Below, piece by piece: positions 2,420-17,899 of a stretch of DNA of 64,000 bases. Source of the stretch: Streptomyces sp. WP-1 (GTDB lineage Bacteria > Actinomycetota > Actinomycetes > Streptomycetales > Streptomycetaceae); contig NZ_CP123923.1 of assembly GCF_030450125.1 (NCBI RefSeq), positions 496,001 to 560,000 of the forward strand. The letters are read 5' to 3'. The notes below the pieces were generated by a model. It had not been told where the DNA came from. It searched no databases and saw only the letters and a list, made by a program, of their open reading frames with translations. Both the position numbers and the translations under genes were made by a program. Position 1 is the first letter of the stretch. The number at the start of each line of letters is the position of its first letter.

Positions 2420-5400
2420 ATGAGCGAACTGCACTCGCCTGTGCACCCCGTACGCCTGGTCACCGCATCCGCTCTGTTCGACGGGCACGACGCGTCGATC
2501 AACATCATGCGGCGCATCTTCCAGTCCCAGGGCGCCGAAGTGATCCACCTCGGGCACAACCGGTCGGTGCAGGAGGTCGTGAACGCGGCGCTGGAGGAGG
2601 ACGCGCACGGCGTGGCCGTCTCCTCCTACCAGGGCGGCCATGTCGAGTACTTCGAGTACCTGGTCGAGTCGCTGCGCGAGCGGGGCGCGGAGCACATCCG
2701 AGTGGTCGGCGGCGGTGGTGGGGTGATCGTGCCCGAGGAGATCACCCGGCTGCGCGCGCACGGGGTGACCATCTTCTCGCCCGAGGACGGCCAGCGGATG
2801 GGCCTCGCCGGGATGATCAACTCCGTCGTACGGGACTGCGACTTCGACCTCTGGGAGGGCAAGCCCGCCGACGCCGACGCCGTGCTCGCGGGCGACCGGT
2901 TCGCCACCGCGCGGGCCATCACGGGCGCCGAACTCGGCAAGCTGCCCCCGGAGTTCCTCGACCGGCTGCGGGCCGCCGCGGCCGGCCGGGTGGTGCCGGT
3001 CCTCGGCATCACCGGCACCGGCGGCTCCGGCAAGTCCTCGCTGACCGACGAGCTGGTGCGCCGCTTCCGCGTGGACCAGCAGGACAAGCTGCGCATCGCG
3101 GTGATCGCGGTCGACCCGACCCGCCGGCGCGGCGGCGGCGCCCTGCTCGGCGACCGGATCCGGATGAACTCCCTGGACGGGAACCGGGTGTTCTTCCGCA
3201 GCCTGGCCACCCGTGGCAGCCATGAGCTGCCCGAGCACCTCACCGATGTGATCGACGTGGTCAAGGCGGCCGGGTACGACCTGGTGATCGTGGAGACCCC
3301 GGGCATCGGCCAGGGCGACGCGGCGATCGTGCCGTTCGTCGACACCTCCCTGTACGTGATGACGCCGGAGTTCGGCGCCGCGTCCCAGCTGGAGAAGATC
3401 GACATGCTCGACTTCGCCGACGTGGTCGCGGTCAACAAGTTCGAGCGGCGCGGCGCCAAGGACGCGCTGCGCGATGTGAGCCGCCAACTGGTGCGCAACC
3501 GCGAGGCGTTCGACAAGAGGCCCGAGGACATGCCGGTGTACGGCACCTCGGCCGCGACCTTCCACGACGACGGGGTCACCGCGCTCTTCCAGCACCTGAA
3601 GACGGAGCTGGACGGGAAGGGACTGCACCTCCAGGAGGGCACCCTCGCGCCCGTCGATGTGCGCCACTCCTCCGGGATCCGCCAGGTGGTGCCCGCCGAC
3701 CGGGTGCGCTATCTCGCGGAGATCACCGAGTCGGTCCGCGCGTACCACGCCGAGACCGAGGTGCTCGCCGAGGCGGCCCGTCGGGTGCAGCGCCTCGACC
3801 TGGTCAAGGGCGAGCTGGCGGCGGCCGGTTCGGACGCGGACAACGTGGACGCGCTGCTCACCGACGCCCGCGGGCAGCTCCCGCACGAGATCCGCCGGCA
3901 GATCGAGACCTGGCCGGCCGTCGTGGCGTCGTACTCCGGTGACGAGCAGGTCGTGAAGATCCGCGACCGGGAGATCCGCACCAAGCTGACCCGTGAGTCG
4001 CTGTCGGGCAACAAGGTGCCCCGGGTGGCGCTGCCCCGGTTCACCGACCACGGCGAGCTGGTGCGGTTCTGGCGGCGGGAGAACCTGCCCGGCTACTTCC
4101 CGTTCACCGCGGGCGTGTTCCCCTTCAAGCGCGACGGCGAGGACCCGGCGCGGATGTTCGCCGGCGAGGGCGACCCGTTCCGCACCAACCGCCGCTTCAA
4201 GCTGCTCTCCGAGGGCCAGCCCGCCACCCGGCTGTCCACCGCCTTCGACTCGGTCACCCTCTACGGCCGCGACCCGGGCGAGCGCCCCGACGTCTACGGC
4301 AAGATCGGCACCTCAGGCGTCTCGGTCGCGAACCTGGACGACATGAAGGCGCTGTACGACGGCTTCGACCTGATCGCGCCGACGACCTCGGTGTCGATGA
4401 CGATCAACGGCCCGGCGCCCACCGTGCTGGCGTTCTTCCTCAACACCGCGATCGACCAGCAGATCGAGCGGTTCCGCGCCGCCGAGGGCCGCGACCCCTC
4501 CGCCGAGGAGGCGGAGCAGCTGCGCGCCCACGCGCTGGCGAGCGTGCGGGGCACGGTGCAGGCCGACATCCTCAAGGAGGACCAGGGCCAGAACACCTGT
4601 CTGTTCTCGACCGAGTTCTCGCTGCGGATGATGGCCGACATCCAGGAGTGGTTCATCGCGCACAAGGTCCGCAACTTCTACTCGGTGTCCATCTCCGGCT
4701 ACCACATCGCCGAGGCGGGCGCGAACCCGATCAGCCAGCTGGCGTTCACCCTGGCCAACGGCTTCACCTATGTGGAGGCGTACCTGGCGCGCGGCATGGA
4801 CGTGGACGACTTCGCGCCGAACCTGTCGTTCTTCTTCTCCAACGGCATGGACCCCGAGTACTCGGTGCTCGGCCGGGTCGCCCGCCGGATCTGGGCGGTC
4901 GCGATGAAGCGGAAGTACGGCGCCAACGAGCGTTCCCAGAAGCTCAAGTACCACGTCCAGACCTCGGGCCGCTCGCTGCACGCCCAGGAGATGGACTTCA
5001 ACGACATCCGCACCACGCTCCAGGCGCTCATCGCCATCTACGACAACTGCAACAGCCTGCACACCAACGCCTACGACGAGGCGGTCACCACCCCGACCGA
5101 GGAATCCGTCCGCCGGGCGCTGGCCATCCAGCTGATCATCAACCGGGAGTGGGGCCTCGCGATGAACGAGAACCCGCTCCAGGGGTCGTTCATCATCGAT
5201 GAGCTGACCGACCTGGTCGAGGAGGCGGTGCTGCTGGAGTTCGAGCGGATCAGCGAGCGCGGCGGCGTGCTCGGCGCGATGGAGACCGGCTACCAGCGCG
5301 GCCGTATCCAGGACGAGTCGATGCTCTACGAGCAGCGCAAGCACGACGGTTCGCTGCCGATCATCGGCGTCAACACCTTCCGCAACCCGCACACCGAGGG

Positions 5401-5650
5401 TGCCGAGCCGGGCGCCATCGAGCTGGCCCGCGCGACGGAGCAGGAGAAGCGTTCCCAGCTGGAGCGGGTGCACGACTTCCAGGCCCGGCACCAGCAGGAG
5501 GCGCACGCCGCGCTGAGCGCCCTGAAGGCGGCGGCGGTCGCGGGCGAGAACGTGTTCTCGGTGCTCATGGACGCCGCGCGGGTGTGCACCCTCCAGCAGA
5601 TCACCGAGGCGTTCTTCGAGGTGGGCGGCCAGTACCGGCGCAACGTCTGA
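2420..5650 (+). CDS. icmF: Fused isobutyryl-CoA mutase (adenosylcobalamin-dependent)
   Basis: A 1076-residue three-part protein. The N-terminal cobalamin-binding domain (residues ~10-145) carries DGHDAS at 21-26 with H23 as the expected lower axial ligand of B12. It is followed by a MeaB/MeaI-type GTPase chaperone domain (P-loop GTGGSGKSS at 199-207). The large TIM-barrel mutase subunit follows from about residue 540 (ISGYHIAEAGANP). This is the diagnostic IcmF order: a small subunit, its G-protein chaperone and a large subunit in one chain. It interconverts isobutyryl-CoA and n-butyryl-CoA, linking valine catabolism with butyrate metabolism; some homologues also accept isovaleryl/pivalyl-CoA. 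The start is set by ATG with GGAAGG 6 nt upstream. The length is typical and no lesion is visible. A strong hairpin follows the stop. Confidence 0.96.
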   Translation: MSELHSPVHPVRLVTASALFDGHDASINIMRRIFQSQGAEVIHLGHNRSVQEVVNAALEEDAHGVAVSSYQGGHVEYFEYLVESLRERGAEHIRVVGGGGGVIVPEEITRLRAHGVTIFSPEDGQRMGLAGMINSVVRDCDFDLWEGKPADADAVLAGDRFATARAITGAELGKLPPEFLDRLRAAAAGRVVPVLGITGTGGSGKSSLTDELVRRFRVDQQDKLRIAVIAVDPTRRRGGGALLGDRIRMNSLDGNRVFFRSLATRGSHELPEHLTDVIDVVKAAGYDLVIVETPGIGQGDAAIVPFVDTSLYVMTPEFGAASQLEKIDMLDFADVVAVNKFERRGAKDALRDVSRQLVRNREAFDKRPEDMPVYGTSAATFHDDGVTALFQHLKTELDGKGLHLQEGTLAPVDVRHSSGIRQVVPADRVRYLAEITESVRAYHAETEVLAEAARRVQRLDLVKGELAAAGSDADNVDALLTDARGQLPHEIRRQIETWPAVVASYSGDEQVVKIRDREIRTKLTRESLSGNKVPRVALPRFTDHGELVRFWRRENLPGYFPFTAGVFPFKRDGEDPARMFAGEGDPFRTNRRFKLLSEGQPATRLSTAFDSVTLYGRDPGERPDVYGKIGTSGVSVANLDDMKALYDGFDLIAPTTSVSMTINGPAPTVLAFFLNTAIDQQIERFRAAEGRDPSAEEAEQLRAHALASVRGTVQADILKEDQGQNTCLFSTEFSLRMMADIQEWFIAHKVRNFYSVSISGYHIAEAGANPISQLAFTLANGFTYVEAYLARGMDVDDFAPNLSFFFSNGMDPEYSVLGRVARRIWAVAMKRKYGANERSQKLKYHVQTSGRSLHAQEMDFNDIRTTLQALIAIYDNCNSLHTNAYDEAVTTPTEESVRRALAIQLIINREWGLAMNENPLQGSFIIDELTDLVEEAVLLEFERISERGGVLGAMETGYQRGRIQDESMLYEQRKHDGSLPIIGVNTFRNPHTEGAEPGAIELARATEQEKRSQLERVHDFQARHQQEAHAALSALKAAAVAGENVFSVLMDAARVCTLQQITEAFFEVGGQYRRNV

Positions 5651-5710: not shown

Positions 5711-7369
5711 TCAGGCCGTGTACGCCAGCAGCGCCATCATCCCCGCCTCGCCGTGGTAGGCGTTGTGGCAGTGCAGCATCCACTGGCCCGGGTTGTCGGC
5801 GTCGAAGTACACGGACACCGTGCGGCCGGGCAGCACGATGGTGGTGTCCTTGCGCGGGCCGCCCGTACCGAGCTGGTACGTATGTCCGTGCAGGTGCATG
5901 GGGTGCCACATGTCGGTCTTGTTGACGAAGTCCAGCCGGACCCGCTGGCCCTGCTCGACCAGGACGGGGTCGGCGGTGGGGTGCTTCATGTCGTACCGCC
6001 GGCCGTTGATGCCCCAGTCGTACTCGGCCATGCCGCCGGTGAGTTCGATCCGGTGGACGCGGTCGGTCTTCCTCGTGTCCAGGCGCACGTCGTCGGCGGC
6101 CTTCAGCGCGGCGGCGTTCATGATCATGCCGTCCAGTTCCTTCGGGCGGACGGTCGCCTTCGGCGCGGCGCCGGAACCGGTGCGCACCAGTGCCAGGCCG
6201 CTCGCGTCCTTGCCCTCGGCGAGGGCGACCAGCGGGAAGACCCCGTCGGCGAGCGTGACGAGGATGTCGTACCGCTCCCCCATGCCCACCAGCAGCGCGT
6301 CCACCTGCTGATGGGCGACCGGGAAGCCGTCCGTGTGGGTGATGGTCAGCTTGTGGCCGCCGAGCGCGACGCGGTACGCCGTGTCGCCGCCGGCGTTGAT
6401 GACGCGCAGCCGCACCCGCTTGCCGGGCTTGCCGGTGTAGACGTCGGGGTCGGCCGGCACGCGGCCGTTGATCAGGTGGTACGGGTACTTGACGTCACCG
6501 GCGTCGCCGCCGAGCAGACTGCTTCGCGCGCTCATGAGCATGAACTTCATCGAGCCGGACGACGACGCCTTGCCGCCCCCCTTGCCCGCATCACTGCCGC
6601 TCATGTCCATGCCGGCCATGTCCATCCCGCCCATGTCGCCCATGTCATGGCCGGAGGAGCCACCGTGGCTCGCGCCGCCGTGGCCCGAGCCGTCACCCGA
6701 ACCGCCCCCCGAACCGCCCATGTCCATGTCGCCCATGCCGTGGCTCAGTTCGGCGAGGACCTGGTCGGGGGAGCCGGTGACACCGTCGACCCAGTCGTCC
6801 AGCACGACGACCCACTCGTCGTCGTACGACAGCGGTTCCCTCGGGTCCTCCACGATGAGCGGGGCGTGCAGTCCCCGGTCGAGCTGGACGCCCACGTGGG
6901 GGTGGAAGAAGTAGGTGCCGGGGGTGTCGGCGAGGAAGCGGTAGGTGAAGTTGTGGCCGGCGCGCACCGCATTCTGGGTGGCCGGGGGCACGCCGTCCAT
7001 GTCGGCGCGCAGGGCGATACCGTGCCAGTGGACGGACGTGGTGGTCCGGTCCGGGAGCTGGTTGGAGAGTTCGGCGGCGAGGGTGTCACCGGCCGGGAGC
7101 CGGATCTCCTGGCCCGGGGTGCGACCGCCGTAGGCCCAGCTCTTCGCCGTCACCTTGCCGCCGATGTCGAGCAGGGCGGGCGCGGCGGTCAGGGTCACCT
7201 CGCGCACCTTGCCGGTGCCCTTGCGCTTCCTCTCGGTGGTCGCGACCACCTTGCTGTCGGGGCTCACCAGGGCCGGCGTGGCCCCGGAGCCGCCGCACGC
7301 GGCGAGCGCTCCGGTCCCGGCGACGGCGAGACCGGCCAGCAGGGTGGAACGACGGTTGATGCTGTTCAT
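5711..7369 (-). CDS. Multicopper oxidase, secreted, with Met/His-rich insert
   Basis: A 552-residue cupredoxin-domain oxidase. The N terminus has a twin-arginine-like NRRSTLL followed by a hydrophobic stretch and a lipobox-like LAAC, so a Tat-exported lipoprotein is likely. Copper-ligand motifs occur in order: HWHG, HPHVG, HPMHLHGH and HCHNAYH. Between the first two domains (roughly residues 225-290) is an insert very rich in Gly, His and Met (repeated GHD/GMDM units), the kind that binds extra copper in CueO/CopA-type oxidases. A longer frame begins at 7426, but the ATG at 7369 has GAGG 8 nt upstream and starts directly on the signal sequence. The gene is second in a probable operon with the DUF6153 gene. 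Copper(I) oxidation and detoxification is the expected role. Confidence 0.93.
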   Translation of the reverse strand: MNSINRRSTLLAGLAVAGTGALAACGGSGATPALVSPDSKVVATTERKRKGTGKVREVTLTAAPALLDIGGKVTAKSWAYGGRTPGQEIRLPAGDTLAAELSNQLPDRTTTSVHWHGIALRADMDGVPPATQNAVRAGHNFTYRFLADTPGTYFFHPHVGVQLDRGLHAPLIVEDPREPLSYDDEWVVVLDDWVDGVTGSPDQVLAELSHGMGDMDMGGSGGGSGDGSGHGGASHGGSSGHDMGDMGGMDMAGMDMSGSDAGKGGGKASSSGSMKFMLMSARSSLLGGDAGDVKYPYHLINGRVPADPDVYTGKPGKRVRLRVINAGGDTAYRVALGGHKLTITHTDGFPVAHQQVDALLVGMGERYDILVTLADGVFPLVALAEGKDASGLALVRTGSGAAPKATVRPKELDGMIMNAAALKAADDVRLDTRKTDRVHRIELTGGMAEYDWGINGRRYDMKHPTADPVLVEQGQRVRLDFVNKTDMWHPMHLHGHTYQLGTGGPRKDTTIVLPGRTVSVYFDADNPGQWMLHCHNAYHGEAGMMALLAYTA

Positions 7370-7459
7370 AGGGGATGCCTCTTCTCGAATTGCCGTCGAC
7401 CTGCGCCCATGCGGCATCGCTCCCACGGAGTACAGGGGAACGGGCCGCTCGGGGGCGGC

Positions 7460-7924
7460 CTAGATCAGCAGTCGGGAGAGGACGGAGAGGTCGGGCGGCG
7501 CGCGATGCGGGTTGCCCGGCAGGCCGCGCCCGGCGAGGACGCCCCGGGGCGGGGCGGCCCGGACGGTGTGCGTCGGCACGGTCGGCGGATCGAGCCACTG
7601 CGGTGAGCCGACGGCCCCCGAGGTGCAGTGCTGCATGTCGGCACCGGAGCAGGCGCCGCCCATGTCATGGTCCATGGCCGAGGTCAGGGCCTGGGCGGCC
7701 CTGTCCTGCCCGGTCATGCGGTGCGCGGTGCGAGCCGTCCCGGGCATCGCGCTCATGGCGGTCCCGGGTGCGACGGGGGCCGCGCTCATGGCGGTCGCCG
7801 GTGCGGCGGGGGCCGAGCCCAGGTCGTGGTGGACCAGGACGACGAAGGCGGCGAGCAGGGCCAGGACGGCGGCCCACGACCGGCGCGCCGCGCCGCCACG
7901 GGAACCGGTCCGCCGGTACGTCAC
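7460..7924 (-). CDS. DUF6153-type small membrane or secreted protein of a copper operon
   Basis: A 154-residue protein with one N-terminal membrane segment (SWAAVLALLAAFVVLVHH), then an Ala/Met/His-containing region and a CSGADMQHC segment. It ends with the RAPPDL...L motif typical of DUF6153 proteins in streptomycetes. The GTG start is chosen because AGGGAGG lies 7 nt upstream; a longer frame to 8086 lacks support. It precedes the multicopper oxidase by 90 bp on the same strand and lies behind a CsoR-like operator, so a part in copper binding or delivery is likely. The family itself has no established biochemical function. Confidence 0.8.
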   Translation of the reverse strand: MTYRRTGSRGGAARRSWAAVLALLAAFVVLVHHDLGSAPAAPATAMSAAPVAPGTAMSAMPGTARTAHRMTGQDRAAQALTSAMDHDMGGACSGADMQHCTSGAVGSPQWLDPPTVPTHTVRAAPPRGVLAGRGLPGNPHRAPPDLSVLSRLLI

Positions 7925-8015
7925 CTGCCGCCCTCCCTGTCCGAGACCACGCCTGCGATCACACACGCGTCGCGGGACCACGTCCCGTGCGCCACAGGCT
8001 CCAGGCACGCCACTA

Positions 8016-8030
8016 TACCCCCTAGGGGTA
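8016..8030 (-). promoter_or_regulatory. CsoR-type copper operator
   Basis: TACCCCCTAGGGGTA is a near-perfect G-tract/C-tract palindrome about 90 bp upstream of the DUF6153 start. It closely matches the palindrome bound by actinobacterial CsoR copper(I) repressors (known from S. lividans). It would derepress the DUF6153/multicopper oxidase operon when copper rises. No csoR gene is in the window. Confidence 0.78.
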
Positions 8031-8107
8031 CGACGTCCAGGCGCCGTCAGGCCCTGGCCGCCTCCGCCCTGCCGGTGCCGTTGCACCTGCGCAGCGGGTC
8101 CTCGCCC

Positions 8108-8147
8108 AGTTCTGCGGTGACTTGCCGAGTTCTGCGGTGACTTGCCG
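8108..8147. repeat. Perfect 20-bp tandem duplication
   Basis: The unit AGTTCTGCGGTGACTTGCCG occurs twice head to tail. It lies in the non-coding stretch between the copper operon and the asparagine synthetase-like gene. No function is apparent; it looks like a recent slippage or duplication scar. Confidence 0.9.
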
Positions 8148-8373
8148 ACGCTGATCCGCCGCTACGCCGGCCGCCCGCTCGTCGGGTCTCCGCTGTCAGC
8201 TGCCGGGCGCCACGGAGAAGGAGCTGCGCATCCACCGGTGAGCGGCCTCACGGTGACAACGGGTGCCATTCGGTCCTGACGATCCGGAGCGCCTCCGCGA
8301 GGCGGCCCGTGGGCAGACCACCCGCATCGGCATGTTCGGCGAGCCGGTCGAGCAGCATCCCGGCGGGGTCCCC

Positions 8374-8439
8374 TCAATCGGACTGGAACAGCGCGCCGCC
8401 GAGCCCGAACGAGGCGCCGACCAGCAGCCCGGCGGACGG
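8374..8439 (-). pseudogene. Possible remnant of a FecCD-type iron-siderophore permease
   Basis: A 21-codon open stretch between stop codons reads AGLLVGASFGLGGALFQSD. This matches the conserved 'LxGAxxGLxGALFQS' helix of FecCD/BtuC permeases, and nothing else of that gene is recognisable nearby. The same frame continues after the stop for about 40 codons with no match I recognise. Flanking sequence between 8040 and 8600 has no convincing gene on either strand, so this stretch looks like decayed coding DNA. The call rests on one short motif. Confidence 0.35.
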
Positions 8440-8606
8440 TCACAGCGAGAAGACTCTCCGGCGCGGCGCGGTCTGCGGACTCGGCCCTGAACTCTTCCGT
8501 CCCGTCGACCCTGTTGGGCGGCAGACCGGCCGGACAAGGCGGCCCCGGTGACGCATCGACGCCATGACATCAATGCGCCAGGCCAATAGTCGGCGCTCCC
8601 CCGATA

Positions 8607-8622
8607 TTTTGGTGACCCAAAA
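8607..8622. promoter_or_regulatory. Inverted repeat upstream of the asparagine synthetase-like gene
   Basis: TTTTGG and CCAAAA flank TGAC, a perfect 6-bp-arm palindrome in an AT-rich pocket 34 bp before the ATG at 8656. Its position between a likely promoter and the start suits an operator. The regulator is unknown; the Fur-family and LuxR-type proteins encoded 3-4 kb away are possible. Confidence 0.5.
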
Positions 8623-8655
8623 CAAGGTCGCAACCACGTCTCGGAGGCCACCAGC

Positions 8656-10446
8656 ATGTGCAGGATCTTCGGCTCCTTCGCGGTCGCGGCCACCGGCGCC
8701 GAGCTGGCCACGGTGTCGGCCCGGCAACGGCACGGGGGACCGGACGAGCGCGGGCTGCGCACCGGCCGCGGTTGGTCCCTCGGCTGTGACCGGCTCGCCG
8801 TGACCGACCCGGCGGGCGGCTCCCAGCCCTTCGCCCTGCCGACGGCGCCGGGCGTGCTGGCCGTACTCAACGGCGAGATCTACAACCACCAAGAGCTGCG
8901 AAGGCACTTGACCGCCCGTGGCCATCGTTTCCCGGACCGCTGCGACGGAGGGCTACTGCCCGCCCTCTACACGGAGTTCGGCCCCGCGTTCGCCGACCGG
9001 CTGGACGGGATGTTCGCGATCGCCGTCCTGGACCTGCGCGAACGCCGTCCCCGACTCGTCCTGGCCGTCGACGGGATGGGCATGAAGCCGCTGCACTACC
9101 ACCAGGGTCCGCGCGGTGCCCTGCGGTTCGCCTCGGAGATCCCCGCGTTGCTCGCGTTCGACGGGGTGCCCGCCGTCCCGCGCGAGGACGCCCTCGACAC
9201 CGTCCTGTCCACCAGGACACCCTTCGGTACGGAGACCGCCCTGCGCGACATCCGCGTGCTGCCGCCCGGGAGCGTCGCGGTGGCCCGTGGCGGTGAGGGG
9301 CTGCGGATGCTGCGCTGCGGGCCGCGCGCCTCGGTGCCCCACCCCGGGCCGGCGCCGTCGGGCGCGGACGTGCTGACGACGCTGCGCCGCGAGGTGCACC
9401 GGCTCGCCGACGTCGATCTGCCGCTGTGCGCCCTGACCAGCGGCGGCCTGGACTCCGGCCTGGTGACCGCGCTCGCCGCCGAGCACACCGAGCCGCTGCA
9501 CACCTTCCACCTCGGCTACCGCGGCCGCTGGCCCCGAGCCGAGCACACGTATGCGAAGGCTGTCGCCAGGCGCGCCCGTACCCTCCACCACCATGTCTCC
9601 CTGGATCCCGCCGAGTTGCCCTCACTGCTGACCCGCACGATGCGCCATCTGGGCCAGCCCAACGCCGATCCCGTCACCGTCAGCACCTACGCGCTCTTCC
9701 GGGCCGTACGCGAGGCCGGGTTCACCGTGGCGCTCACCGGGGACGGCGCCGACGAACTCTTCGGCGGCTACGACCGGATCGGCACCGCCCTGACCGCGCC
9801 CGCCGGGACCGACTGGACGGCTCCCTACGCCGACGCGCTGGCGGCCGCGCCCCGGCTGCTGCGGGAATGGCTCTACACCCCCGAATACCGGGCGTTCATC
9901 GCCGAGCACGGCTCCGCGGCCGACCGGGTCATGGCCGAACTGCGCGCCTGCGGCACCGAACGGGCCGGTGCACTCCAGCGGTTCGAGACGCGGCGCCGGC
10001 TGCCCGCGTACCACCTGCGGCGCATGGACCATCTGAGCATGGCGTGGGCGGTCGAGGCCCGCATGCCGTTCTGCCAGCCGGACATGGTCTCCCTGGCCCG
10101 CCGACTGCCCGTCGAACTGCGCACCGGGAAACGGGCGTTGTACGAGGCCGGGCGTGGGCTGCTCCCGGCCGCCACGCTGCGCCGACCCAACCAGCCCTTC
10201 ACGCTGCCCCTTTCGGCCATGCTCGCCGTCGACGGACCGCTGGTGTGGACCCTGCGCGAACTGCTCTCGCCCGCGCGGCTGCGGCGCACCGGGCAGCTGC
10301 GCGCCGACCGGGTGCAGGCCCTGTTCGCCCGGCACGCCGAACGCCCCTCCGACCAGGACGCGCTGGCCCTCTGGTCGCTGGGCGTGCACGAGTTGTGGGC
10401 CGATGTCGTACAGGGCCTTCGGGTGTCGGCCGACCTCGCCGCGTGA
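8656..10446 (+). CDS. Asparagine synthetase (glutamine-hydrolysing) family enzyme
   Basis: 596 residues with two domains. The N-terminal class II glutamine amidotransferase has the nucleophile Cys2 right after the initiator Met, GGPDE at 27-31, NGEIYN at 72-77 and an Asp at 97 matching the glutamine-binding Asp. The C-terminal ATP-pyrophosphatase domain has the P-loop SGGLDS at 262-267 and GDGADELFGGYD near 357. All key residues for glutamine hydrolysis and aspartyl-AMP formation look present, so it should amidate a carboxylate. Free asparagine synthesis is possible, but stand-alone relatives also act on natural products and peptides. The next gene on the same strand, about 460 bp on, encodes a small secreted peptide with repeated Asp-Asn-Asn-Trp-Pro, so peptide amidation is an attractive but unproven idea. 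An inverted repeat lies just upstream. Confidence 0.9.
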   Translation: MCRIFGSFAVAATGAELATVSARQRHGGPDERGLRTGRGWSLGCDRLAVTDPAGGSQPFALPTAPGVLAVLNGEIYNHQELRRHLTARGHRFPDRCDGGLLPALYTEFGPAFADRLDGMFAIAVLDLRERRPRLVLAVDGMGMKPLHYHQGPRGALRFASEIPALLAFDGVPAVPREDALDTVLSTRTPFGTETALRDIRVLPPGSVAVARGGEGLRMLRCGPRASVPHPGPAPSGADVLTTLRREVHRLADVDLPLCALTSGGLDSGLVTALAAEHTEPLHTFHLGYRGRWPRAEHTYAKAVARRARTLHHHVSLDPAELPSLLTRTMRHLGQPNADPVTVSTYALFRAVREAGFTVALTGDGADELFGGYDRIGTALTAPAGTDWTAPYADALAAAPRLLREWLYTPEYRAFIAEHGSAADRVMAELRACGTERAGALQRFETRRRLPAYHLRRMDHLSMAWAVEARMPFCQPDMVSLARRLPVELRTGKRALYEAGRGLLPAATLRRPNQPFTLPLSAMLAVDGPLVWTLRELLSPARLRRTGQLRADRVQALFARHAERPSDQDALALWSLGVHELWADVVQGLRVSADLAA

Positions 10447-10909
10447 TCGCCTGGCGCATCCGCGTCGTGGAGGAAGAACCCTGACCAGGGTGAAGAACGC
10501 CTCGCTCGCCCCGGGCGACTGTCCCGAGCCCGGCCCGCGCATGCCGCGGGCGCGGGTGTCCCGAGGTGGGGCAGGAGCGGCGGCACGCCCCTGCCCCGGC
10601 GGCCGCTTCCTCCCGGAGGTACAAAAGGGCCGCGATCGCAGCCTAGCATTTCATTTGAGTGGACCAAAGGTACTGGCTCATCCAAAAAGACGCTCGGCCT
10701 GATTTATTCGATTGGCCGAATGAAGCCCTTGTGGTGATTCCATCGGGCACCACCCGTCCCGGCGCTGTCATATCCGCGCCATGGCAGGTCCACGACTCGA
10801 AGAAACATGGACTCCGGGTCCAGGAAGGGTGATTATAGAAATGTCTTCGGAACAAGCTCGGCGGCACGGGCCCGAAGGCGAAAACCACCGATCACTTCCT
10901 GGAGGAAAA
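10447..10909. other. 463-bp spacer, partly AT-rich, between the synthetase and the peptide gene
   Basis: No convincing gene is seen. From about 10640 to 10850 the GC content drops well below the surroundings, and the sequence contains ATTCG/CGAAT arms (10706-10721), GGACCAAAGG near 10662 and an alternative ATG at 10841 preceded by GGAAGGG. The peptide gene therefore probably has its own promoter here. A minus-strand ORF at 10643-10888 has no family resemblance. Confidence 0.55.
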
Positions 10910-11155
10910 GTGTCCGCGTCTTCCCTCATCGCCGGTTTCCGCACCACCGCCCGCCAGTTCGCCCTGGCCACCCTTGTCTGCACCGCGGTAACGGGCGGAG
11001 CGGTCGCGGCCACCGTCACGGGAACGCACTCCGCGCACCACTCGGTGGCCGACAACAACTGGCCCAGCGCCTACGCGGTCCCGGCGGACAACAACTGGCC
11101 CGCCACTCCCGCGCCGACGGACAACAACTGGCCGGTGACACCTGCGGCTGCCTGA
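10910..11155 (+). CDS. Small secreted peptide with three DNNWP repeats
   Basis: An 81-residue product. Residues 1-36 form a signal peptide (Arg-containing n-region, then FALATLVCTAVTGGAVAA), giving an exported tail of roughly 45 residues. The tail contains DNNWP three times (near residues 48, 60 and 71), spaced by Pro/Ala/Thr-rich linkers. The DNA of the repeats is nearly identical while the linkers differ, so the pentapeptide looks selected. GTG is preferred because GGAGG lies 4 nt upstream and the signal peptide then starts cleanly; ATG at 10841 would add 23 residues. It follows the asparagine synthetase-like gene on the same strand and converges on a Fur-family gene. I do not recognise the family. 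It may be a secreted structural or signalling peptide, or the precursor of a modified peptide. Confidence 0.7.
   Translation: MSASSLIAGFRTTARQFALATLVCTAVTGGAVAATVTGTHSAHHSVADNNWPSAYAVPADNNWPATPAPTDNNWPVTPAAA
11051..11133 (+). repeat. Three 14-bp direct repeats encoding DNNWP
   Basis: GACAACAACTGGCC recurs at 11051, 11087 and 11120, in the same reading frame of the peptide gene, with periods of 36 and 33 bp. The spacers vary in both DNA and protein. Confidence 0.95.
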
Positions 11156-11171
11156 CGCGGCACTTTCCCCC

Positions 11172-11208
11172 GGGGCCGGGAGGGATGGGCAGCCATCTCC
11201 CCGGCCCG
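11172..11208. terminator. Hairpin between the peptide gene and the Fur-family gene
   Basis: An imperfect GC-rich stem (GGGCCGGG paired with CCCGGCCC, extended by GGATGG/CCATC) lies in the 57-bp convergent gap. It probably ends transcription from both sides. Confidence 0.65.
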
Positions 11209-11212
11209 TCCG

Positions 11213-11656
11213 TCATCCGGCCGCGGCAACCACGGAACGGCAGTCCGGGCACAGCCCCTTGAATACAATATCGGCGTCGTCGACTTGCCAGTCGGGCAGA
11301 TCTTTTCGCGGCAGCGTCGGAGCGCGGTGCATGACATTCTCCACCCGCCCGCATTGCACACACAGCGCATGCTGATGGCGTGGTCCCGCTATTTCGAAGA
11401 CCGCCGGCCAGCCGGGGCGCTCGAATTTCGCCGCCAGGCCCGCTTCCAGAAAATGCCGCAGCATTTCATAGACAGCCTGGGAAGTGAGCGTACCCAACCG
11501 CTCGCGTGCCGTGGCCGTCAAACCCTCGACGTCGAAATGATCGCCCGACGCGAGCACCTGGAGCACTTCCAGGCGCGGACTGGTGACCCGCAGCCCCGCA
11601 TCGCGGAGTTGCTGGATCGCCGCCTCGCGCCCCTGAGCCACCGCTTCGCGTGCCAT
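11213..11656 (-). CDS. Fur-family metalloregulator
   Basis: 147 residues, the normal Fur size. The N-terminal winged helix begins with AAIQQLRDAGLRVTSPRLEVL, and the recognition region contains LTSQAVYEMLRHFLEAGL. The C-terminal dimer domain has the His cluster PRHQHALCVQCGRVENV and a second CPDC. The two CxxC pairs make a structural zinc site, as in CatR/FurA and Zur-type proteins. The ATG at 11656 is used; a longer frame to 11752 lacks a ribosome site. It has no catalase or metal transporter as direct neighbour, which is unusual for CatR, FurA, Nur or Zur. It sits between the DNNWP peptide gene and a LuxR-type regulator. Iron, zinc, nickel or peroxide sensing cannot be told apart from sequence alone. 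Confidence 0.85.
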   Translation of the reverse strand: MAREAVAQGREAAIQQLRDAGLRVTSPRLEVLQVLASGDHFDVEGLTATARERLGTLTSQAVYEMLRHFLEAGLAAKFERPGWPAVFEIAGPRHQHALCVQCGRVENVMHRAPTLPRKDLPDWQVDDADIVFKGLCPDCRSVVAAAG

Positions 11657-11774
11657 GTTCCCGCCATCTGGTGAGACCAAAAGTTTGAACGCATCGTAGC
11701 TCTTGGTCCGCCGGGTGCGAGGGGGCCACGCGGAGGGCGACGACCGAGACAACTCCCGCGCCCGGCGGTGGCGT

Positions 11775-12827
11775 TCAGCCCAGCCAGCCGAGCCGGGCGG
11801 CCCGCGCTCCCAGTTCGAAGCGGCTGGACGCGCCCAGTTCCTGCATCAGCTCGGAGATCATCCGGCTCACCGTCCGCAGCGAGACGCCGAGGCTGCGCGC
11901 GACCTTCTCGTCTTTCATCCCCGACGCCAGCATGCGCAGCGCCGCCCGCTGCTGCTCCGAGAGCCCGCCCCCGCCCCGGGCGGGCAGCACCTGCTCGCCG
12001 TAGGGCGTCGCGGTGTGCCAGCAATGTTCGAACAAGGTCTGGTACGAGCGCACGATCGCGGAGCCATGGGCGAGGATGGCACCGGCGGCGCCGTCCTCCG
12101 GGTCGACCGGGAGGATCGCGAACTGCTCGTCCGCGATGATCATGTTCATGGGGACGACGGGCGAGAGGCGCACCTGGACGCCCAGCTTCGCCTTCATCCG
12201 CAGATGCTCCGCGTCCTCGGACACCGAGGTCAGACGCTGGCTGAAAATGGAGCGGACCTGGACGCCCTTCTCGATCTGCCGCCGGTCCCGGTCGAGGGCC
12301 CGCTCGGGGATCTCCCGCCCGCGCGTGATCGGGTGCATCGAGGCGAGGTTGCCCTGGACCGTCACCGTGATGTCCTCCAGCACCTGCTGGATGCGGCGGT
12401 AGTCGGACAGGATCTCGATCTCCACGCCGACCGTCCGCGCCAGCGTCTCCGTGCGCAGGAAGTTGCCGGCGAGTGTCTTCAGCGTGTGGTGCGCCCGGTC
12501 GGCCTGCTCCAGATGGTCACGCAGCCGGGTGCGCTCGCGCTCCAGCAGCCGCAGCAGGGCGATCTCGGGGGCGATGACCGTGACGACATCGGTCTCCGCC
12601 TCGTCCGGAGCGGCGGGGTCCAGGCGGCTGGCGTGCAGTTGACCGGTTCGGACGACCAGACCGAGGTCGATCAGTTCCTCACGACATTGCGCGAGATCAC
12701 CCTCCGACAAACCCATGTCGGACGCGACTTGGTGCAGGCTCGACGCCCCCTGTGCCCGAAGGCGCCGGTAGAGAGTGAGCGCAAGATCAGTGGATTGCGT
12801 TGCTGCACCGCCACTGCCATTGATCAC
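11775..12827 (-). CDS. LuxR-type regulator with N-terminal winged helix
   Basis: About 350 residues. The N terminus (LALTLYRRLRAQGASSLHQV) resembles a TrmB-type winged helix and is followed by a long helical stretch and a middle domain. The C-terminal GerE/LuxR helix-turn-helix begins at LSEQQRAALRMLASGMKDEK and runs through VARSLGVSLRTVSRMISELM. This architecture is common in streptomycetes, often next to specialised-metabolite or peptide clusters, where the signal is usually unknown. The start is uncertain: GTG at 12827 has a GGGGGG tract 10 nt upstream, while the frame extends to a TTG at 12893. It follows the methyltransferase gene by 100 bp on the same strand, with a small inverted repeat between. 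Confidence 0.85.
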   Translation of the reverse strand: MINGSGGAATQSTDLALTLYRRLRAQGASSLHQVASDMGLSEGDLAQCREELIDLGLVVRTGQLHASRLDPAAPDEAETDVVTVIAPEIALLRLLERERTRLRDHLEQADRAHHTLKTLAGNFLRTETLARTVGVEIEILSDYRRIQQVLEDITVTVQGNLASMHPITRGREIPERALDRDRRQIEKGVQVRSIFSQRLTSVSEDAEHLRMKAKLGVQVRLSPVVPMNMIIADEQFAILPVDPEDGAAGAILAHGSAIVRSYQTLFEHCWHTATPYGEQVLPARGGGGLSEQQRAALRMLASGMKDEKVARSLGVSLRTVSRMISELMQELGASSRFELGARAARLGWLG

Positions 12828-12917
12828 CGCGACGCGGCCCCCCTTGTGATTGCGCGAAGCCCTCCCATCACACCTTGTCACAGAGGAGGCCAAAGATCTC
12901 CGATGCTGCTTAGTAAT

Positions 12918-12931
12918 GTGACGGTCGTCAC
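12918..12931 (-). promoter_or_regulatory. Short inverted repeat upstream of the LuxR-type gene
   Basis: GTGAC and GTCAC flank GGTC, overlapping the stop of the methyltransferase gene. On the minus strand it is followed by an AT-rich TTACTAAG stretch that could be a -10 region. It is a candidate operator for the LuxR-type gene. Confidence 0.35.
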
Positions 12932-13800
12932 GTATCGGTGCGGCAGGTCAGGAGCACGCTTCGCGTCCACTCGTCGATCTGGTACTGCCGCTCATCGACG
13001 ACGCGCAGTCCCGCGACGCGCAGATCCCGGTGCAGATCAGAGGAGTTGACGATCCATTTGTCGGTCGTCACCAGCACGGCGCGGCCGTTTCTCGACTCCG
13101 AGCGCTCAATGACATAGGAGATGCGCTCCCGCATAGCCACCGCATCGAAGTCCTGCCGAGCCACGGCCCGTTCCGTGATCCCGTCGAAGCGCGGCACCTC
13201 GAACGACCAGACGCGGTGCGGGCGTTCGGCAAGCCCCGTGGGGTCGTGGGCGGTGTAGTCGAAGGCGAGCACGCCGCGCGGTCCGAGGTGGCCGGCGATC
13301 TCACGCAGCACACGGGGGCGTGACCTCGGGGGGACGGCAGCGATCATCGACCCTGCCATCAGGGCGAGTTGGCAGGACCGGTGCGGGGGCAGGCGGAGCA
13401 GATCGGCGGGGATCGCGGTGATCCGGTCGCACACCTCGGGGCCGAGGCGGCGGGACCGGTCGAGCAACCGGTGCAGGCTGCGCCGGTCCCGGTCGACGGC
13501 GTCCACCGTGAAGCCGTGACGCGCGAGGGGTACGGCGATCCGGCCCGCGCCCGCGCCGAGGTCGAGCACCGGACCGCCGGTGGCCCTGGCCAGCGCCAGG
13601 TACTCCAGGATGTCGTCGCTGAACGGGCCGAGCAGGGCGTCCTGGAGCCATACGTCCTCGTCCGTGAGCGGGGCGAGGCATTCGAGGCCGGGCAGCCGGT
13701 CGGAGCGGAGCGGGATGGCGGTGGCGGTGGCGGTTCGGGACGCCGAGGCCGGTGCGGGCGCGGGCGCGGGCAGCACCGGGGTGCCGTTCTGTATGAGCAT
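12928..13800 (-). CDS. Class I SAM-dependent methyltransferase
   Basis: 290 residues. A low-complexity Pro/Ala-rich leader (residues ~9-25) is followed by the Rossmann fold with SAM motif I PVLDLGAGAGRIAVPLARHG and the acidic ribose-binding segment VDAVDRDRRSL. The start is ATG at 13800 with GGAGGAG just upstream; the longer frame to 14232 is unsupported. The substrate cannot be read from sequence. Its position upstream of a LuxR-type regulator and near the peptide and amidotransferase genes makes modification of a peptide or small metabolite possible, but this is context only. Confidence 0.85.
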   Translation of the reverse strand: MLIQNGTPVLPAPAPAPASASRTATATAIPLRSDRLPGLECLAPLTDEDVWLQDALLGPFSDDILEYLALARATGGPVLDLGAGAGRIAVPLARHGFTVDAVDRDRRSLHRLLDRSRRLGPEVCDRITAIPADLLRLPPHRSCQLALMAGSMIAAVPPRSRPRVLREIAGHLGPRGVLAFDYTAHDPTGLAERPHRVWSFEVPRFDGITERAVARQDFDAVAMRERISYVIERSESRNGRAVLVTTDKWIVNSSDLHRDLRVAGLRVVDERQYQIDEWTRSVLLTCRTDT

Positions 13801-14094
13801 CGCTCCTCCAGGTGGCCTCGGCCGCTCCCGGCCGTCCGGGCGGACGCCGTGCCGTGGGGGGCCACGGCGCCCGATCATCGTGTCCGGGCGCGCCCGCGGC
13901 GGTCCAGCCAGGGGGAATGCGCGTTCACGCCAACGCGTGCGTGCGCCACAGCAGTTGTGCCGGGCGGCAGCGTGGCACACGATCCGTACCGGCCTGTGTC
14001 CTGTGCCGGTAAGTCCATGGGCCGTGAAGACAGGCAGCTCGGGGTCGTCGTCTTGGAGAGGGCCGGTTGGGTCCGCGGCCCGCTGGGGGCGCAT

Positions 14095-14383
14095 CCGGTC
14101 GGTGAGCGGGCCAGCAGCGTGCTGCCGATGTCGCGACGGCGGTGCCGATCGGGCGTGGTGCACAGGGCGTAGCTGGCACACAGGGCGTAGATCGCGCGCT
14201 GGCCGATGCCGGGGACACCGCCAACGCCGCATCGCCGACGACCCGCCCGCCGACCTCCGCCGCCACCAGCCGAGCGAGCCGGCCCGGGGTGCCGCCCGTC
14301 CAGCCGTGCCGTGTCGCGGTGGCGAGCGGATGCGGGATCGGGGCGGCGTCCACGGGCACGGCGGACCGCACGTCCACGCTCAC
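14095..14383 (-). pseudogene. Frameshifted, truncated GNAT acetyltransferase
   Basis: One minus-strand frame reads VSVDVRSAVPVDAAP then LVAAEVGGRVVGDAALAV, a typical GNAT N-terminal half. It loses sense near 14205, and the acetyl-CoA-binding half continues in another frame as IYALCASYALCTTP and RRDIGSTLLARS. A frameshift therefore splits the gene. No GNAT sequence can be followed past about 14095, so the C-terminal third is also missing. No full-length start-to-stop frame exists. Confidence 0.65.
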
Positions 14384-14414
14384 CAGGGCAGAACCTTCGG
14401 GGGCCTTCGCCCGG

Positions 14415-15398
14415 TCAGCTGCAGGGGCCCGGGGCCGAGCAGTACACCGCCGCCAGTATGAGCAGGCCGACCGCCAGGGCGAGGGCGAGCAGGGTGACAC
14501 CCAGCACCGTGGGGCGCTCGGTGGGTGGTTGAAGGATGCGCCGCATGCGCAGCAGCGCCGACGAGCCGCCCGCCGCGAGGGCCGCGCGTGGTGCTTGTCC
14601 GGCCGCGACCACGTACAGGGCGACGGCCAGTGCCTGGCGCGAGCAGCGGCGCAATGCCCGGTCGTCGGCGGCCATTTCGAGCAGGAGCGGCACCTCGTCG
14701 CGGACGAGCCGGGCCAGCGGCAGCCGCCGGGAAAGCGCCCCGAAGGCAGAGGCGGCGGCCGCGAGGAGGTGGTGGCGGCCCGCGATGTGCGCGCGTTCGT
14801 GTTCCAGCGCGGCCGTGAGCTGTTCCCCGGTCAGGGCGTGTACGGCGCCCTCGCTGACCACCACCTGCGGCGCGCGGCCGGGCAGGCAGTAGACGGCGGG
14901 GGTGGTGTGCGGCAGCACCGTGGCCCGCAGTTCGGAGCGCCAACTCCCCACCATGCCGAGGAGTTCGGCGTGCCGGGCCCGGCGGCGCCGGAAGTCGAAC
15001 ACCTGCCGCCCGAAGGCCAGGGCGAGGGCGAGGGGCGGGCAGACGGCGGCGGAGAATCCCGCCCACGCGAGGGCGCTGGGCCGTTCCAGGCCGTTCAGCA
15101 TGACGGCGACACAGCGTCCGGCGCTGGTGAGGAGGAAGTCTCCGGCCGCCTCGGGGAAGTGGTGGCTCTCGGCGACCGGGAAGAAGAGTTGCAGGATTGC
15201 GAGGGACAGGGACGCGGTGAGGACGAGCACCAGCAGTCCCCATAATCCGAGGGTGAACCGCGGCACCCGGTGCGCCCAGCGGCTGCGCACGAGGAACCGC
15301 GGCAGGATCACCCCGGCCGCGACGGCCAGCACCAGCGGCGGCAGGACATGATGGAACCGCACAAGGAACTCCCCGGCGCGGCAGCGGAGTTGGCTCAC
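14415..15398 (-). CDS. M56-family (BlaR1-like) membrane metallopeptidase
   Basis: 327 residues with hydrophobic segments near residues 18-35, 45-70, 100-125 and at the C terminus (VLGVTLLALALAVGLLILAAVY). The zinc-peptidase motif HERAH lies between the third and last. The C-terminal beta-lactam sensor domain of true BlaR1 is absent, as in most actinobacterial M56 proteins. It overlaps the upstream BlaI-type repressor gene by 4 bp and is translationally coupled to it. The pair probably forms a signal system in which the peptidase triggers inactivation of the repressor. The inducing signal is unknown. Confidence 0.9.
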   Translation of the reverse strand: MSQLRCRAGEFLVRFHHVLPPLVLAVAAGVILPRFLVRSRWAHRVPRFTLGLWGLLVLVLTASLSLAILQLFFPVAESHHFPEAAGDFLLTSAGRCVAVMLNGLERPSALAWAGFSAAVCPPLALALAFGRQVFDFRRRRARHAELLGMVGSWRSELRATVLPHTTPAVYCLPGRAPQVVVSEGAVHALTGEQLTAALEHERAHIAGRHHLLAAAASAFGALSRRLPLARLVRDEVPLLLEMAADDRALRRCSRQALAVALYVVAAGQAPRAALAAGGSSALLRMRRILQPPTERPTVLGVTLLALALAVGLLILAAVYCSAPGPCS

Positions 15399-15787
15399 AA
15401 CGGTCTCTCCGGTGGCGCCTCGCCGACGGGCCGGTGCCCCGAGGCGCGCAGGGCGGCCTCCAACACGGAGACGTCCTCAGGGGACATGTGCTCCACGAAG
15501 CGCTGGAGCGCGGCCTGCCGGTCCTCGGTACTGCCGAGGGCCTCCTGCATCAGGCTCGCGGTGTATTCCTCGCGGCTGCGCAGCGCTTCGTACAGCCAGG
15601 CGCGCCCGGCCTTTTCACGCTGGAGCATGCCCTTGCGGTACAGGATGTCCGCGACCGTCATGACCGTCGTATAGGCGACCGGCCGGATCCGGTTGATGTC
15701 GTCCACGACCTCCCGGACCGTGGCGGGCCGTCCCCAGTTCCAGAGACGGTCCATGATTTCGGCTTCCAGATCACCGAGCCGTCGCAC
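15395..15787 (-). CDS. BlaI/MecI/CopY-family repressor
   Basis: 130 residues. The winged-helix domain (LGDLEAEIMDRLWNWGRPAT and VAYTTVMTVADILYRKGML) is followed by a helical dimerisation tail. GTG at 15787 is chosen because GGAGGGG lies 6 nt upstream; the frame could extend to a GTG at 15811. It is the first gene of a two-gene operon with the M56 peptidase, the standard arrangement for BlaI/BlaR1-type regulation. Autoregulation through an operator in the 15788-15850 region is expected, but I see no clear TACA-N-TGTA palindrome there. Confidence 0.92.
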   Translation of the reverse strand: MRRLGDLEAEIMDRLWNWGRPATVREVVDDINRIRPVAYTTVMTVADILYRKGMLQREKAGRAWLYEALRSREEYTASLMQEALGSTEDRQAALQRFVEHMSPEDVSVLEAALRASGHRPVGEAPPERPL

Positions 15788-16233
15788 CTGTTCCCCTCCG
15801 CCGCCTGCCACCGAGGCGCTTCACATCGTAGGACAAGCCTTCCGGACGCGGCATCACCCGCCACATTCCGATACCGGGCGGGGTACGGTCGAGGCATGGT
15901 GTGCTTCGGCAGGCAGGTCGCCGTCGGGGGCGGGGAAGGGTGAAGACGTCGATGCGGTAGGCGGGGACCTCGCCTGATTACACGTCCGCCCGTCGGGCGA
16001 GCCGGGTGACGGTACGGCGGAACCGGGGCCGAAGGCCTCCTACACGGTGGCGCCCCGCACCCTGGCCCACTGGCTTTTGGCCGGGCACCCGAGGCGAACG
16101 ATCACCCTTGGCGTGCCGTCCCGGTTGTGGGTCCGAACATGTGCCCTTTCCCGTTGACCCATGGAAATATCCGGTCTTTTGTGTGCTTGCGGAAATGAAG
16201 CAAGGGCATTCGAGGGCCAGGAGGTTGATAACG
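15788..16233. other. Intergenic spacer upstream of blaI-like and hydrophobic-protein genes
   Basis: 446 bp between divergent genes. It should contain promoters for both; a CGCCCG/CGGGCG mini-hairpin occurs near 15985. The last 100 bp are less GC-rich and contain TTGACCC around 16154. Part of the minus-strand ORF at 16040-16654 extends into it. No other gene is convincing. Confidence 0.5.
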
Positions 16234-16696: not shown

Positions 16697-17899
16697 TCAC
16701 GGCGGCTCCTCCCGCGCCCTCCGGGCCCGGCGACGGGCGGGACGCTCCGGCCGCTCGTCATCACGACCACGGTCGCCTCCTCGTCGCCCCTCGCCGTCGT
16801 CCCCGCCGTCGTCATCCGCCTCGCGGGAGCGCCGCGTCCTGGCGGTCCGCCCGCGTTCCGTCTCACCGTTTCTGCCGGCGGCCCTCCTCGCCGACCGCGC
16901 CGTTCGTCGGGCGGCGCTGCGCTCGGCGGCAGTCCCTTCGACGTCGACCGCCGCTCCCCCGGCGTCGACCGTCTCCCCCGCCTCATCGACCGCCTCGCCC
17001 GCGACGTCTCCCGCCCTCTGCACGGTGCGCCCCGCAACCCGGCCGGTCCCCCGCACCACCCCGCCCGCGTCGCCCACGACCTGCCCGGCCCGGCCTCCGA
17101 CGTCCTCCACCGCACGTCCAGCCCCAGCCCCGACGTCCTCCACCACGCGCCCGGCCCCGCCACCGACGTCCTCCACCACCCGCCCCACTCCCCCACCTAC
17201 GTCCCCGACGGCTCCCCCCGCGCCCGCGCCGACATCCCGCACCGCCGAGGCCGCGCCCCGGCCCACGTCCTCGACGGCGCCGCCGACTCCGCGCCCGACG
17301 CCCTCCACGGCGTACCCGGCGCCATGGCCGACGTCCTCGACGGCTCTGCCCGCCCCGGTGCCCAGTTCGCCCACGGCCAGCCGGGCCCCGCTCCCGACGT
17401 CCCGCACCGCCGAGCCGACGCCACGCGCCAGTTCCTCCAGGATCTGCGGGTTGCGGTCGAGGGTGGTGAGCACCCGGTGGATGATCGACGCGACGTTGTC
17501 GAGCCGCACCTTGAGCTGCGCCTGCGCCTCCACACCCGAGATCCCCAAGTGCACCCGCCCGAGGGCGACATCGGCGCCCACGTTCAGCTTCAGCAGGTCC
17601 AGAACCTCGGCCTGGAGCGAGACGCGGGCCCGCAGATCCTCCACGTCCAGGTCGATCTCGTCGATACTGAGGTGCGGGACGTCGAGGAAGACATCGGGCT
17701 CCGCGTCGGCGCCACCCCTGCGGGCCAGCACCGGGGCACCCTCCGGGTACGGCTCGGTCCCGGCGTACTCATCGGGGCCGTCGACCTCGTACTCGTACTC
17801 TTCTTCGTACTCGTCCCCGGCCCCTTCCTGGTCCTCGTCCTCGTCGTACGGCTCGGGTTCCTCGACGGGCCCGTCGTCGTTCTCGACGTCGTCGCGCAT
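16697..17899 (-). CDS. Protein with eleven 11-residue amphipathic repeats
   Basis: 400 residues in four parts. An acidic N terminus (residues 1-70, rich in Asp/Glu/Tyr) is followed by a well-ordered conserved segment (71-160) containing IDEIDLDVEDLRARVSLQAE and RVLTTLDRNPQILEEL. Residues 163-283 form about eleven tandem 11-residue units of the type xAVEDVGxGAG. A basic, low-complexity C terminus follows (330-400). The 11-residue periodicity with hydrophobic Val/Ala and acidic faces recalls LEA or synuclein-type lipid-binding helices. ATG at 17899 with GGAGG 7 nt upstream is chosen over a longer frame to 18037. No signal peptide or membrane segment is seen. Function is unknown; stress protection or membrane association are guesses. 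Confidence 0.85.
   Translation of the reverse strand: MRDDVENDDGPVEEPEPYDEDEDQEGAGDEYEEEYEYEVDGPDEYAGTEPYPEGAPVLARRGGADAEPDVFLDVPHLSIDEIDLDVEDLRARVSLQAEVLDLLKLNVGADVALGRVHLGISGVEAQAQLKVRLDNVASIIHRVLTTLDRNPQILEELARGVGSAVRDVGSGARLAVGELGTGAGRAVEDVGHGAGYAVEGVGRGVGGAVEDVGRGAASAVRDVGAGAGGAVGDVGGGVGRVVEDVGGGAGRVVEDVGAGAGRAVEDVGGRAGQVVGDAGGVVRGTGRVAGRTVQRAGDVAGEAVDEAGETVDAGGAAVDVEGTAAERSAARRTARSARRAAGRNGETERGRTARTRRSREADDDGGDDGEGRRGGDRGRDDERPERPARRRARRAREEPP
17051..17413 (-). repeat. 33-bp-period coding repeats (11 residues x ~11)
   Basis: Tandem units in phase with the reading frame encode variants of xAVEDVGxGAG. Several units, such as RVVEDVGGGAG and RAVEDVGxGAG, are nearly identical at DNA level, pointing to recent unit duplication. 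Confidence 0.9.

Follow-up and report, generated by a model that had tools for sequence, protein, structure and literature searches.

The stretch of Streptomyces sp. WP-1 DNA analyzed here (64 kb; the window) carries, at 8656 to 13800, five genes that, judging from comparison with related genomes, are almost certainly the remains of a gene cluster conserved in Streptomyces and Kitasatospora. The genes that were kept encode a glutamine-dependent asparagine synthase-family enzyme (AS), a short peptide, a Fur-family regulator, a LuxR-type regulator, and an S-adenosylmethionine (SAM) methyltransferase. TIGR01536, Pfam, and open reading frame (ORF) checks placed all five where an initial annotation of the sequence had put them, and synteny in relatives bore out its view that they belong together. 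The annotation missed scraps of the genes for a PIG-L deacetylase, a glycosyltransferase, and a GNAT acetyltransferase in or next to the interval. The window genome is a single 7.62-Mb contig rated 99.99% complete.

A search for the LuxR protein in 392 genus genomes (threshold, E 1e-90) was followed by comparison of the loci of all 33 matching genomes other than that of the window. These 33 loci, L034, and 7 loci from a search of the family (10 of 297 genomes matched; two were already in the set, and L094, a 3.9-kb contig, was left out) make up a set of 41 loci that carry LuxR and a methionyl-tRNA synthetase (MetRS)-like gene. L089 to L092 belong to genus g14, taken as Kitasatospora; the genus of the window was taken as Streptomyces. 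Gene presence was called by length thresholds or, for the M56, CsoR, and Cu-ATPase genes, by any hit; the lengths of gene pieces in L080 and of two glycosyltransferase pieces in L089 were summed, and some loci end at contig ends. The loci come from related species and are not independent, so that the locus counts are not probabilities. Several cluster genes of L080 are broken over frames, and because its genome is rated 88% complete, sequencing error is suspected.

In its full form, the cluster consists of a PIG-L deacetylase gene divergent from AS and, downstream of AS, genes for a PrpF-like isomerase, an SDR, a MetRS-like ligase, an MshA-like glycosyltransferase, and the peptide; on the opposite side of the peptide lie the LuxR, Fur, methyltransferase, and GNAT genes. 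Past GNAT, relatives carry two genes that we take to be of the M56 and BlaI types, a CsoR-type repressor, and a heavy-metal ATPase. Across the 41 loci, PIG-L, Fur, and the methyltransferase were each found in 38, the glycosyltransferase and GNAT in 37, AS in 35, PrpF and SDR in 32, the Cu-ATPase in 35, M56 in 34, and CsoR in 33. All 38 PIG-L loci encode the peptide, and 35 and 32 of them encode AS and the PrpF-SDR genes, respectively. PrpF and SDR are gained or lost together and never occur without AS. The PIG-L-bearing cluster is present in 30 of the 34 LuxR genomes; conversely, three loci (L057, L067, and L074) retain LuxR and the ligase without PIG-L, glycosyltransferase, AS, Fur, methyltransferase, or GNAT. 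LuxR and the MetRS-like gene share a locus in all 33 nonwindow LuxR genomes (in pieces in L080) as well as in all eight loci that were not found via LuxR (L034, L089 to L093, L095, and L096). By LuxR, the nearest relatives of the window are G003 (94%; L035, which lacks PrpF and SDR) and G365 (91%; L066, complete).

Compared to these relatives, the window has undergone deletions at five or more places. The PrpF, SDR, and MetRS-like genes are gone, and PIG-L, the glycosyltransferase, and GNAT are gutted, with about 192 codons missing between the PIG-L scraps. The CsoR and Cu-ATPase genes, located in relatives between the BlaI-like and far flanking genes, are gone as well. No tblastn or blastn match to the MetRS-like or PrpF gene was obtained in the 64-kb window at E 0.01, and SDR gave a single 25%-identical match elsewhere in it. 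At E 1e-80, no MetRS-like copy was found in the window genome, the only one of the 34 LuxR genomes without this gene. The gap between AS and the peptide is ∼5 kb in relatives, 3.4 kb in L035, and 0.46 kb in the window. In L035, the match to the glycosyltransferase gene stops at position 6716. Thus, AS lies beside the peptide in the window because about 3 kb (versus L035) to 4.7 kb (versus complete clusters) is missing. The ratios of nonsynonymous to synonymous divergence (dN/dS) from L035 are ordinary (AS, 0.22; Fur, 0.18; LuxR, 0.13; methyltransferase, 0.51), a pattern of constraint over most of the divergence that does not imply constraint at present. The window copy is probably nonproductive, and the strain as it stands would be unable to run the pathway proposed below.

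The deletion bears on the central proposal of the initial annotation, namely, that AS and the peptide form a dedicated pair of the ribosomally synthesized and posttranslationally modified peptide (RiPP) type in which AS amidates Asp to Asn beside Trp. The two genes are same-strand neighbors in the window, and the glutaminase and synthetase residues checked in AS are all present, including Cys2 and the P-loop. However, the adjacency is a deletion scar; the Asn of DNNWP is already encoded in the DNA (AAC), and the residue before Trp varies in the family (N, G, D, E, V, or L), so that no amidation is needed. Furthermore, the peptide occurs without AS in 3 of 38 loci (L060, L091, and L092), the very finding that the annotation had named as refuting conserved pairing. 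The L060 genome (G038) has no AS at E 1e-150 in a whole-genome search; the other two were checked at the locus only. AS also scores 87.6 bits against a lasso cyclase cutoff of 525, and it adjoins PrpF in all three noncluster AS loci examined, out of 18 such matches. Amidation of the peptide by AS is therefore highly improbable, and the case is a caution that gene adjacency in a single genome may be a deletion scar. To judge by these gene neighborhoods, AS-PrpF is a module reused in other clusters. The three pairs seen in other contexts (L097 to L099, not counted among the 41 loci) show identities of 52 to 55% (AS) and 45 to 47% (PrpF). Cupin genes lie near the pair in L097 and L098, and L097 also has a HAD gene and an Indigoidine_A-type gene, presumably PsuG-like.

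The peptide itself belongs, on comparative sequence grounds, to a real conserved family, and its three DNNWP copies, noted initially, were confirmed. A 14-base DNA pattern for DNNWP occurs three times in the 7.6-Mb genome, always in the window peptide, and its backward control does not occur. A protein search returned seven matches, one 99% identical to the window peptide, with variable motif copy number; the named carriers are Streptomyces. At E 1, 183 of 199 genomes had a match, which was noise in nearly every case. Matches below E 1e-5 came from six genomes, that of the window and five with cluster loci, and the weaker matches in G143 (2.6e-4) and G076 (0.0028) are cluster loci too. Another match, L041 (G154; 7e-4), was rejected, as no cluster gene lies within its 20 kb. 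In all 38 PIG-L loci, a short ORF that encodes W immediately before P, D, or N separates the biosynthetic genes from the regulators; no such ORF was found in the 51-, 160-, and 19-base intervals of L057, L067, and L074. A strict test (GGAGG, start, and the W motif) succeeded in 34 of 38 forward sequences, compared to none of the 38 reverse complements and 10 of 1,900 shuffles; the four it misses (L086, L087, L091, and L092) were accepted on position and motif under looser criteria and were assigned without alignment-based homology to the window peptide. Each family peptide contains xxW followed by P, D, or N, in 2 to 7 copies in 12 of 39 (window included). DNNWP copies number 3, 3, 6, 6, and 7 (window included), and other motifs are lineage specific: DNGW, GNEW, GNGWD, TVDWP, E/NVDWP (2 copies), and IVWP (3 and 5 copies). 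A 5′ leader with a CGGCGGCACGG-like core is conserved in L036, L039, L040, L058, and L060 and in the window (about 10840 to 10900), where it has no Rfam match; Rfam gave no match at E up to 1 anywhere in 7400 to 16200.

Could the peptide be a ribosomal substrate, from which an xxxW core is excised and joined by the ligase to glucosamine (GlcN)-inositol or an amino acid, as in a RiPP-like class? The strict ORF test and the confinement of the motif peptide to PIG-L loci (38/38, compared to 0/3 loci with LuxR and ligase only) are consistent with this idea. Short versions, of 23 (L068) and 41 (L060 and L095) residues, drop the signal sequence and keep the C-terminal GNGWD, and tandem copies are alike within a protein but differ between lineages. 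Conversely, no leader-binding domain, processing protease, or exporter appeared in family scans, which were not aimed at them; most copies look Sec-exported; and constraint is weak (pooled pN/pS of 0.67 in 11 DNGWP-type peptides; dN/dS of 0.45 to 0.74 for codons 1 to 47 in the window group). A ribosomal substrate is thus unlikely. A decidedly unlikely extension would make the intact clusters a new natural-product class in which a cupin-free, MetRS-like ligase of the PyrN type activates a ribosomal xxxW core (with a precursor of as few as 23 residues) and attaches it to a mycothiol-like GlcN-inositol, with the window as an example of its loss by deletion.

A hydrophobic N-terminal stretch, the sole basis for the initial claim of secretion, is present in most family members and is lost or reduced in L060, L068, L095, and L091 (23 residues, with ILWP). 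The peptide might accordingly be a secreted signal or surface factor that is regulated with the cluster and dispensable for making the small molecule. Multicopy repeats would suit a processed pheromone, and the best copy of a shared dyad, TTTTGGT-N3-ACCAAAA, is in the peptide's own promoter (31 of 41 intervals at up to 3 mismatches, compared to 2 of 820 shuffles, which preserved base composition only). Because the half-sites were read off the same sequences, the scan is partly circular. Weaker copies precede fur (5/38) and the first biosynthetic gene (2/41). None of 71 sites, some in two registers, falls in a mapped gene; shuffled loci gave five. The dyad is missing from the three Fur-less loci, whose intervals are short, and, at 3 mismatches, from the peptide interval of seven Fur loci (L035, L086, L087, and L089 to L092). 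We infer that the Fur-family repressor binds the dyad. Metal regulation of the peptide, suggested initially, may hold, given an operator-like dyad common to the peptide and fur promoters. The secreted-factor explanation is somewhat unlikely, as the four versions with a lost or reduced hydrophobic stretch keep the motif.

The ligase missing from the window has PyrN as its nearest relative in both solved fold and sequence and contains a MetRS-like domain of the PyrN type. Its AlphaFold model (mean predicted local distance difference test [pLDDT] score of 90.4) best matches the PyrN C-terminal domain and falls below 50 only at 311 to 325, where the KMSKS loop aligns. Of 199 genomes, 15 yielded the ligase at E 1e-80, including five with distant copies (40 to 49% identity). 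In the tree, the ligase falls in a 99-member clade (support, 0.98) that is adjoined by L065 and then by a group with L061 to L063. According to regular expressions, all 48 nonclade sequences sampled keep both the HIGH and the KMSKS-like motif; among the clade members, both persist in 14 (Kitasatospora type), HIGH alone persists in 72, and 13 have neither, with P0086 being a fragment. The eight paired cysteines are invariant in 49 aligned sequences. In P0063, the MetRS-like protein is fused to a GNAT domain.

According to the review PMC11705231, the MetRS-like domains of hydrazine synthetases adenylate amino acids, and the albofungin pathway relies on a MetRS-like protein, a cupin, and an AS-like hydrazine transferase that are separate and cooperate. 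This precedent, the kinship with PyrN, and the position of L065, whose ligase neighbor belongs to the Lys/Orn N-hydroxylase group, as a sister lineage would fit an albofungin-like pathway to a hydrazine or hydrazide that is built from separate parts. In L062, a cupin and a Lys/Orn N-hydroxylase adjoin the ligase, the hydrazine synthetase arrangement. However, no ORF groups with either in the ten mapped loci (L034 to L040 and L058 to L060; the cupin search extended neither to later loci nor to the remainder of the genomes), and we regard a hydrazine pathway as quite improbable. An improbable alternative is that the MetRS-like protein is a degenerating pseudosynthetase, acting as a sensor or partner of LuxR. 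The constant LuxR linkage (8/8 loci not found via LuxR), the three loci without the remaining biosynthetic set, and the absence of KMSKS from 85 of 99 clade members, with HIGH also altered in 13, point in this direction; conversely, HIGH is kept in 86 of 99, and the cysteines are invariant. The LuxR-ligase pair stands nearly alone in L057, L067, L074, and L064; the additional loss of HIGH in L064 and L074 suggests a pseudosynthetase there.

Our preferred reading, which we hold tentatively and at not quite an even chance, is that the window holds the remnant of a conserved cluster whose intact form runs a mycothiol-like GlcN-inositol pathway with a PyrN-type ligase. The chemistry, proposed by analogy, is possible but a shade less secure. 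In intact relatives, the MshA-like enzyme would make N-acetylglucosamine (GlcNAc)-inositol, PIG-L would deacetylate it, the MetRS-like ligase, in place of MshC, would join some amino acid to the free amine, and GNAT and the methyltransferase would cap the conjugate. AS, PrpF, and SDR would be an optional module that makes or tailors the acyl part, the Fur-family repressor would act at the dyads, and the peptide would be a constant, coregulated member. The L034 glycosyltransferase passes the MshA model (517.7 versus 462.5) and aligns over its full length with 3c48, which we take to be Corynebacterium glutamicum MshA; the presumed inositol-phosphate ligands N25, K78, Y110, T134, and R154 appear conserved in this alignment. 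The genome's probable housekeeping MshA is encoded by another gene, at 60% identity.

Several findings weigh against the preferred reading. AS is missing from three PIG-L loci, one of which, L092, also lacks the glycosyltransferase. The Streptomyces cluster ligases have lost their KMSKS-like loop, and adenylation is therefore not assured. The deacetylase is of the PIG-L family but scores 28.0 (L038) and 29.0 (L035) with the MshB model (cutoff, 224.35), and GNAT scores 24.8 (L038) and 18.4 (L036) with that of MshD (cutoff, 163.1). Because L035, the nearest locus, also lacks PrpF and SDR, both losses may predate the split of the window lineage; given the ordinary dN/dS values, some surviving window genes may still be used.

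About 9% of the sampled genus genomes (34/392) carry the cluster's LuxR, and no product was found for the cluster. Neither was a description of the gene combination found in open-licence PMC papers, in keeping with the initial view that it is undescribed. Mycothiol-type sugar chemistry, a minimal Trp-motif peptide, and a ligase of the hydrazine synthetase lineage come together in the cluster, whose losses form a natural series (AS/PrpF/SDR, signal sequence, KMSKS, and the whole pathway) through which the role of each part becomes testable.

Table 1. Genes, gene scraps, and operator-like dyads of the decayed locus (window coordinates)
Feature	Position	Strand	Evidence
MDMPI_N (DinB-like) flanking gene scrap, C-terminal residues	8115..8207	+	tblastn 55% over 31 amino acids (aa) to L036 gene
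PIG-L deacetylase scrap, residues 213-246 of 246 (C-terminal)	8269..8370	-	76% over 34 aa to L035
PIG-L deacetylase scrap, residues 2-20	8441..8497	-	79% over 19 aa to L035
Operator-like dyad TTTTGGT-G-ACCCAAA before AS	8607..8621	.	1 mismatch; 1-base spacer versus 3-base in others
AS, 596 aa, intact ORF	8656..10446	+	TIGR01536; catalytic residues present
MshA-like glycosyltransferase scrap, residues 132-154 of 438	10475..10543	+	74% over 23 aa; blastn to L035, L034
Glycosyltransferase gene 3′-end scrap (end approximate)	10561..10643	+	blastn 86.6%, window 10561-11133 to L035 6634-7214
Operator-like dyad, peptide promoter	10653..10669	.	4 mismatches in window; 1-3 in 31/41 relatives
81-aa peptide, three DNNWP copies	10910..11155	+	GTG start at 10910 behind GGAGG
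Fur-family regulator	11213..11662	-	Pfam FUR 8.3e-15
Operator-like dyad before fur	11666..11682	.	2 mismatches
Regulator with C-terminal LuxR helix-turn-helix (HTH)	11775..12893	-	Pfam GerE; E 1e-90 match in 34/392 genus genomes
SAM methyltransferase	12928..13800	-	Pfam Methyltransf_25; under daptide cutoff
GNAT acetyltransferase scrap, residues 20-55	14294..14398	-	47% over 36 aa
Cluster-flank gene, presumably an M56-type membrane peptidase	14415..15398	-	Syntenic in relatives
Cluster-flank gene, presumably a BlaI-like regulator	15395..15811	-	Syntenic in relatives
Far flanking gene scrap	15963..16079	+	60% over 40 aa to L036

Outside the locus, the window encodes a 1,076-aa fused mutase (2420 to 5650), presumably IcmF-like; a protein with a Met/His-rich insert (5711 to 7366), which we take to be multicopper oxidase-like, on the side of the AHCY/MDMPI genes in many relatives; and a repeat-rich 446-aa protein (16697 to 18037) with a 33-base tandem repeat at 17083 to 17204. 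A defense system was considered and rejected, as PADLOC gave weak matches only (methyltransferase to mad2, 48 bits; LuxR HTH to CARF/CasR models).

Compared with known systems, AS shares its two-domain build and catalytic residues with the asparagine synthase B family, which includes lasso peptide cyclases and the hydroxyamidotransferase 7ylz, and it passes TIGR01536 (289.9 bits; cutoff, 267.1); it differs from lasso cyclases in falling far under their cutoff and in having PrpF as the partner gene. The best NCBIfam match of the methyltransferase is the daptide RiPP enzyme NF041820, at 102.3 (window), 107.7 (L038), and 125 (L036) against a cutoff of 175. With the MetRS/cupin hydrazine synthetases (PyrN, Spb40, and Tri28; split into Afn8/Afn9 for albofungin), the cluster shares the PyrN-type MetRS-like domain, whereas no cupin or N-hydroxylase was seen in its mapped loci and its Streptomyces ligases have lost the KMSKS-like loop. 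With mycothiol synthesis (MshA, MshB, MshC, and MshD), it shares an MshA-type glycosyltransferase, PIG-L, an aminoacyl-tRNA synthetase-like ligase, and GNAT; however, this ligase is MetRS-like rather than cysteinyl-tRNA synthetase-like as in MshC, with no other ligase noticed in the cluster, and AS, PrpF, SDR, the methyltransferase, and the peptide are added. On the sequence features tested, the cluster thus falls outside the mycothiol, hydrazine synthetase, lasso, and daptide systems.

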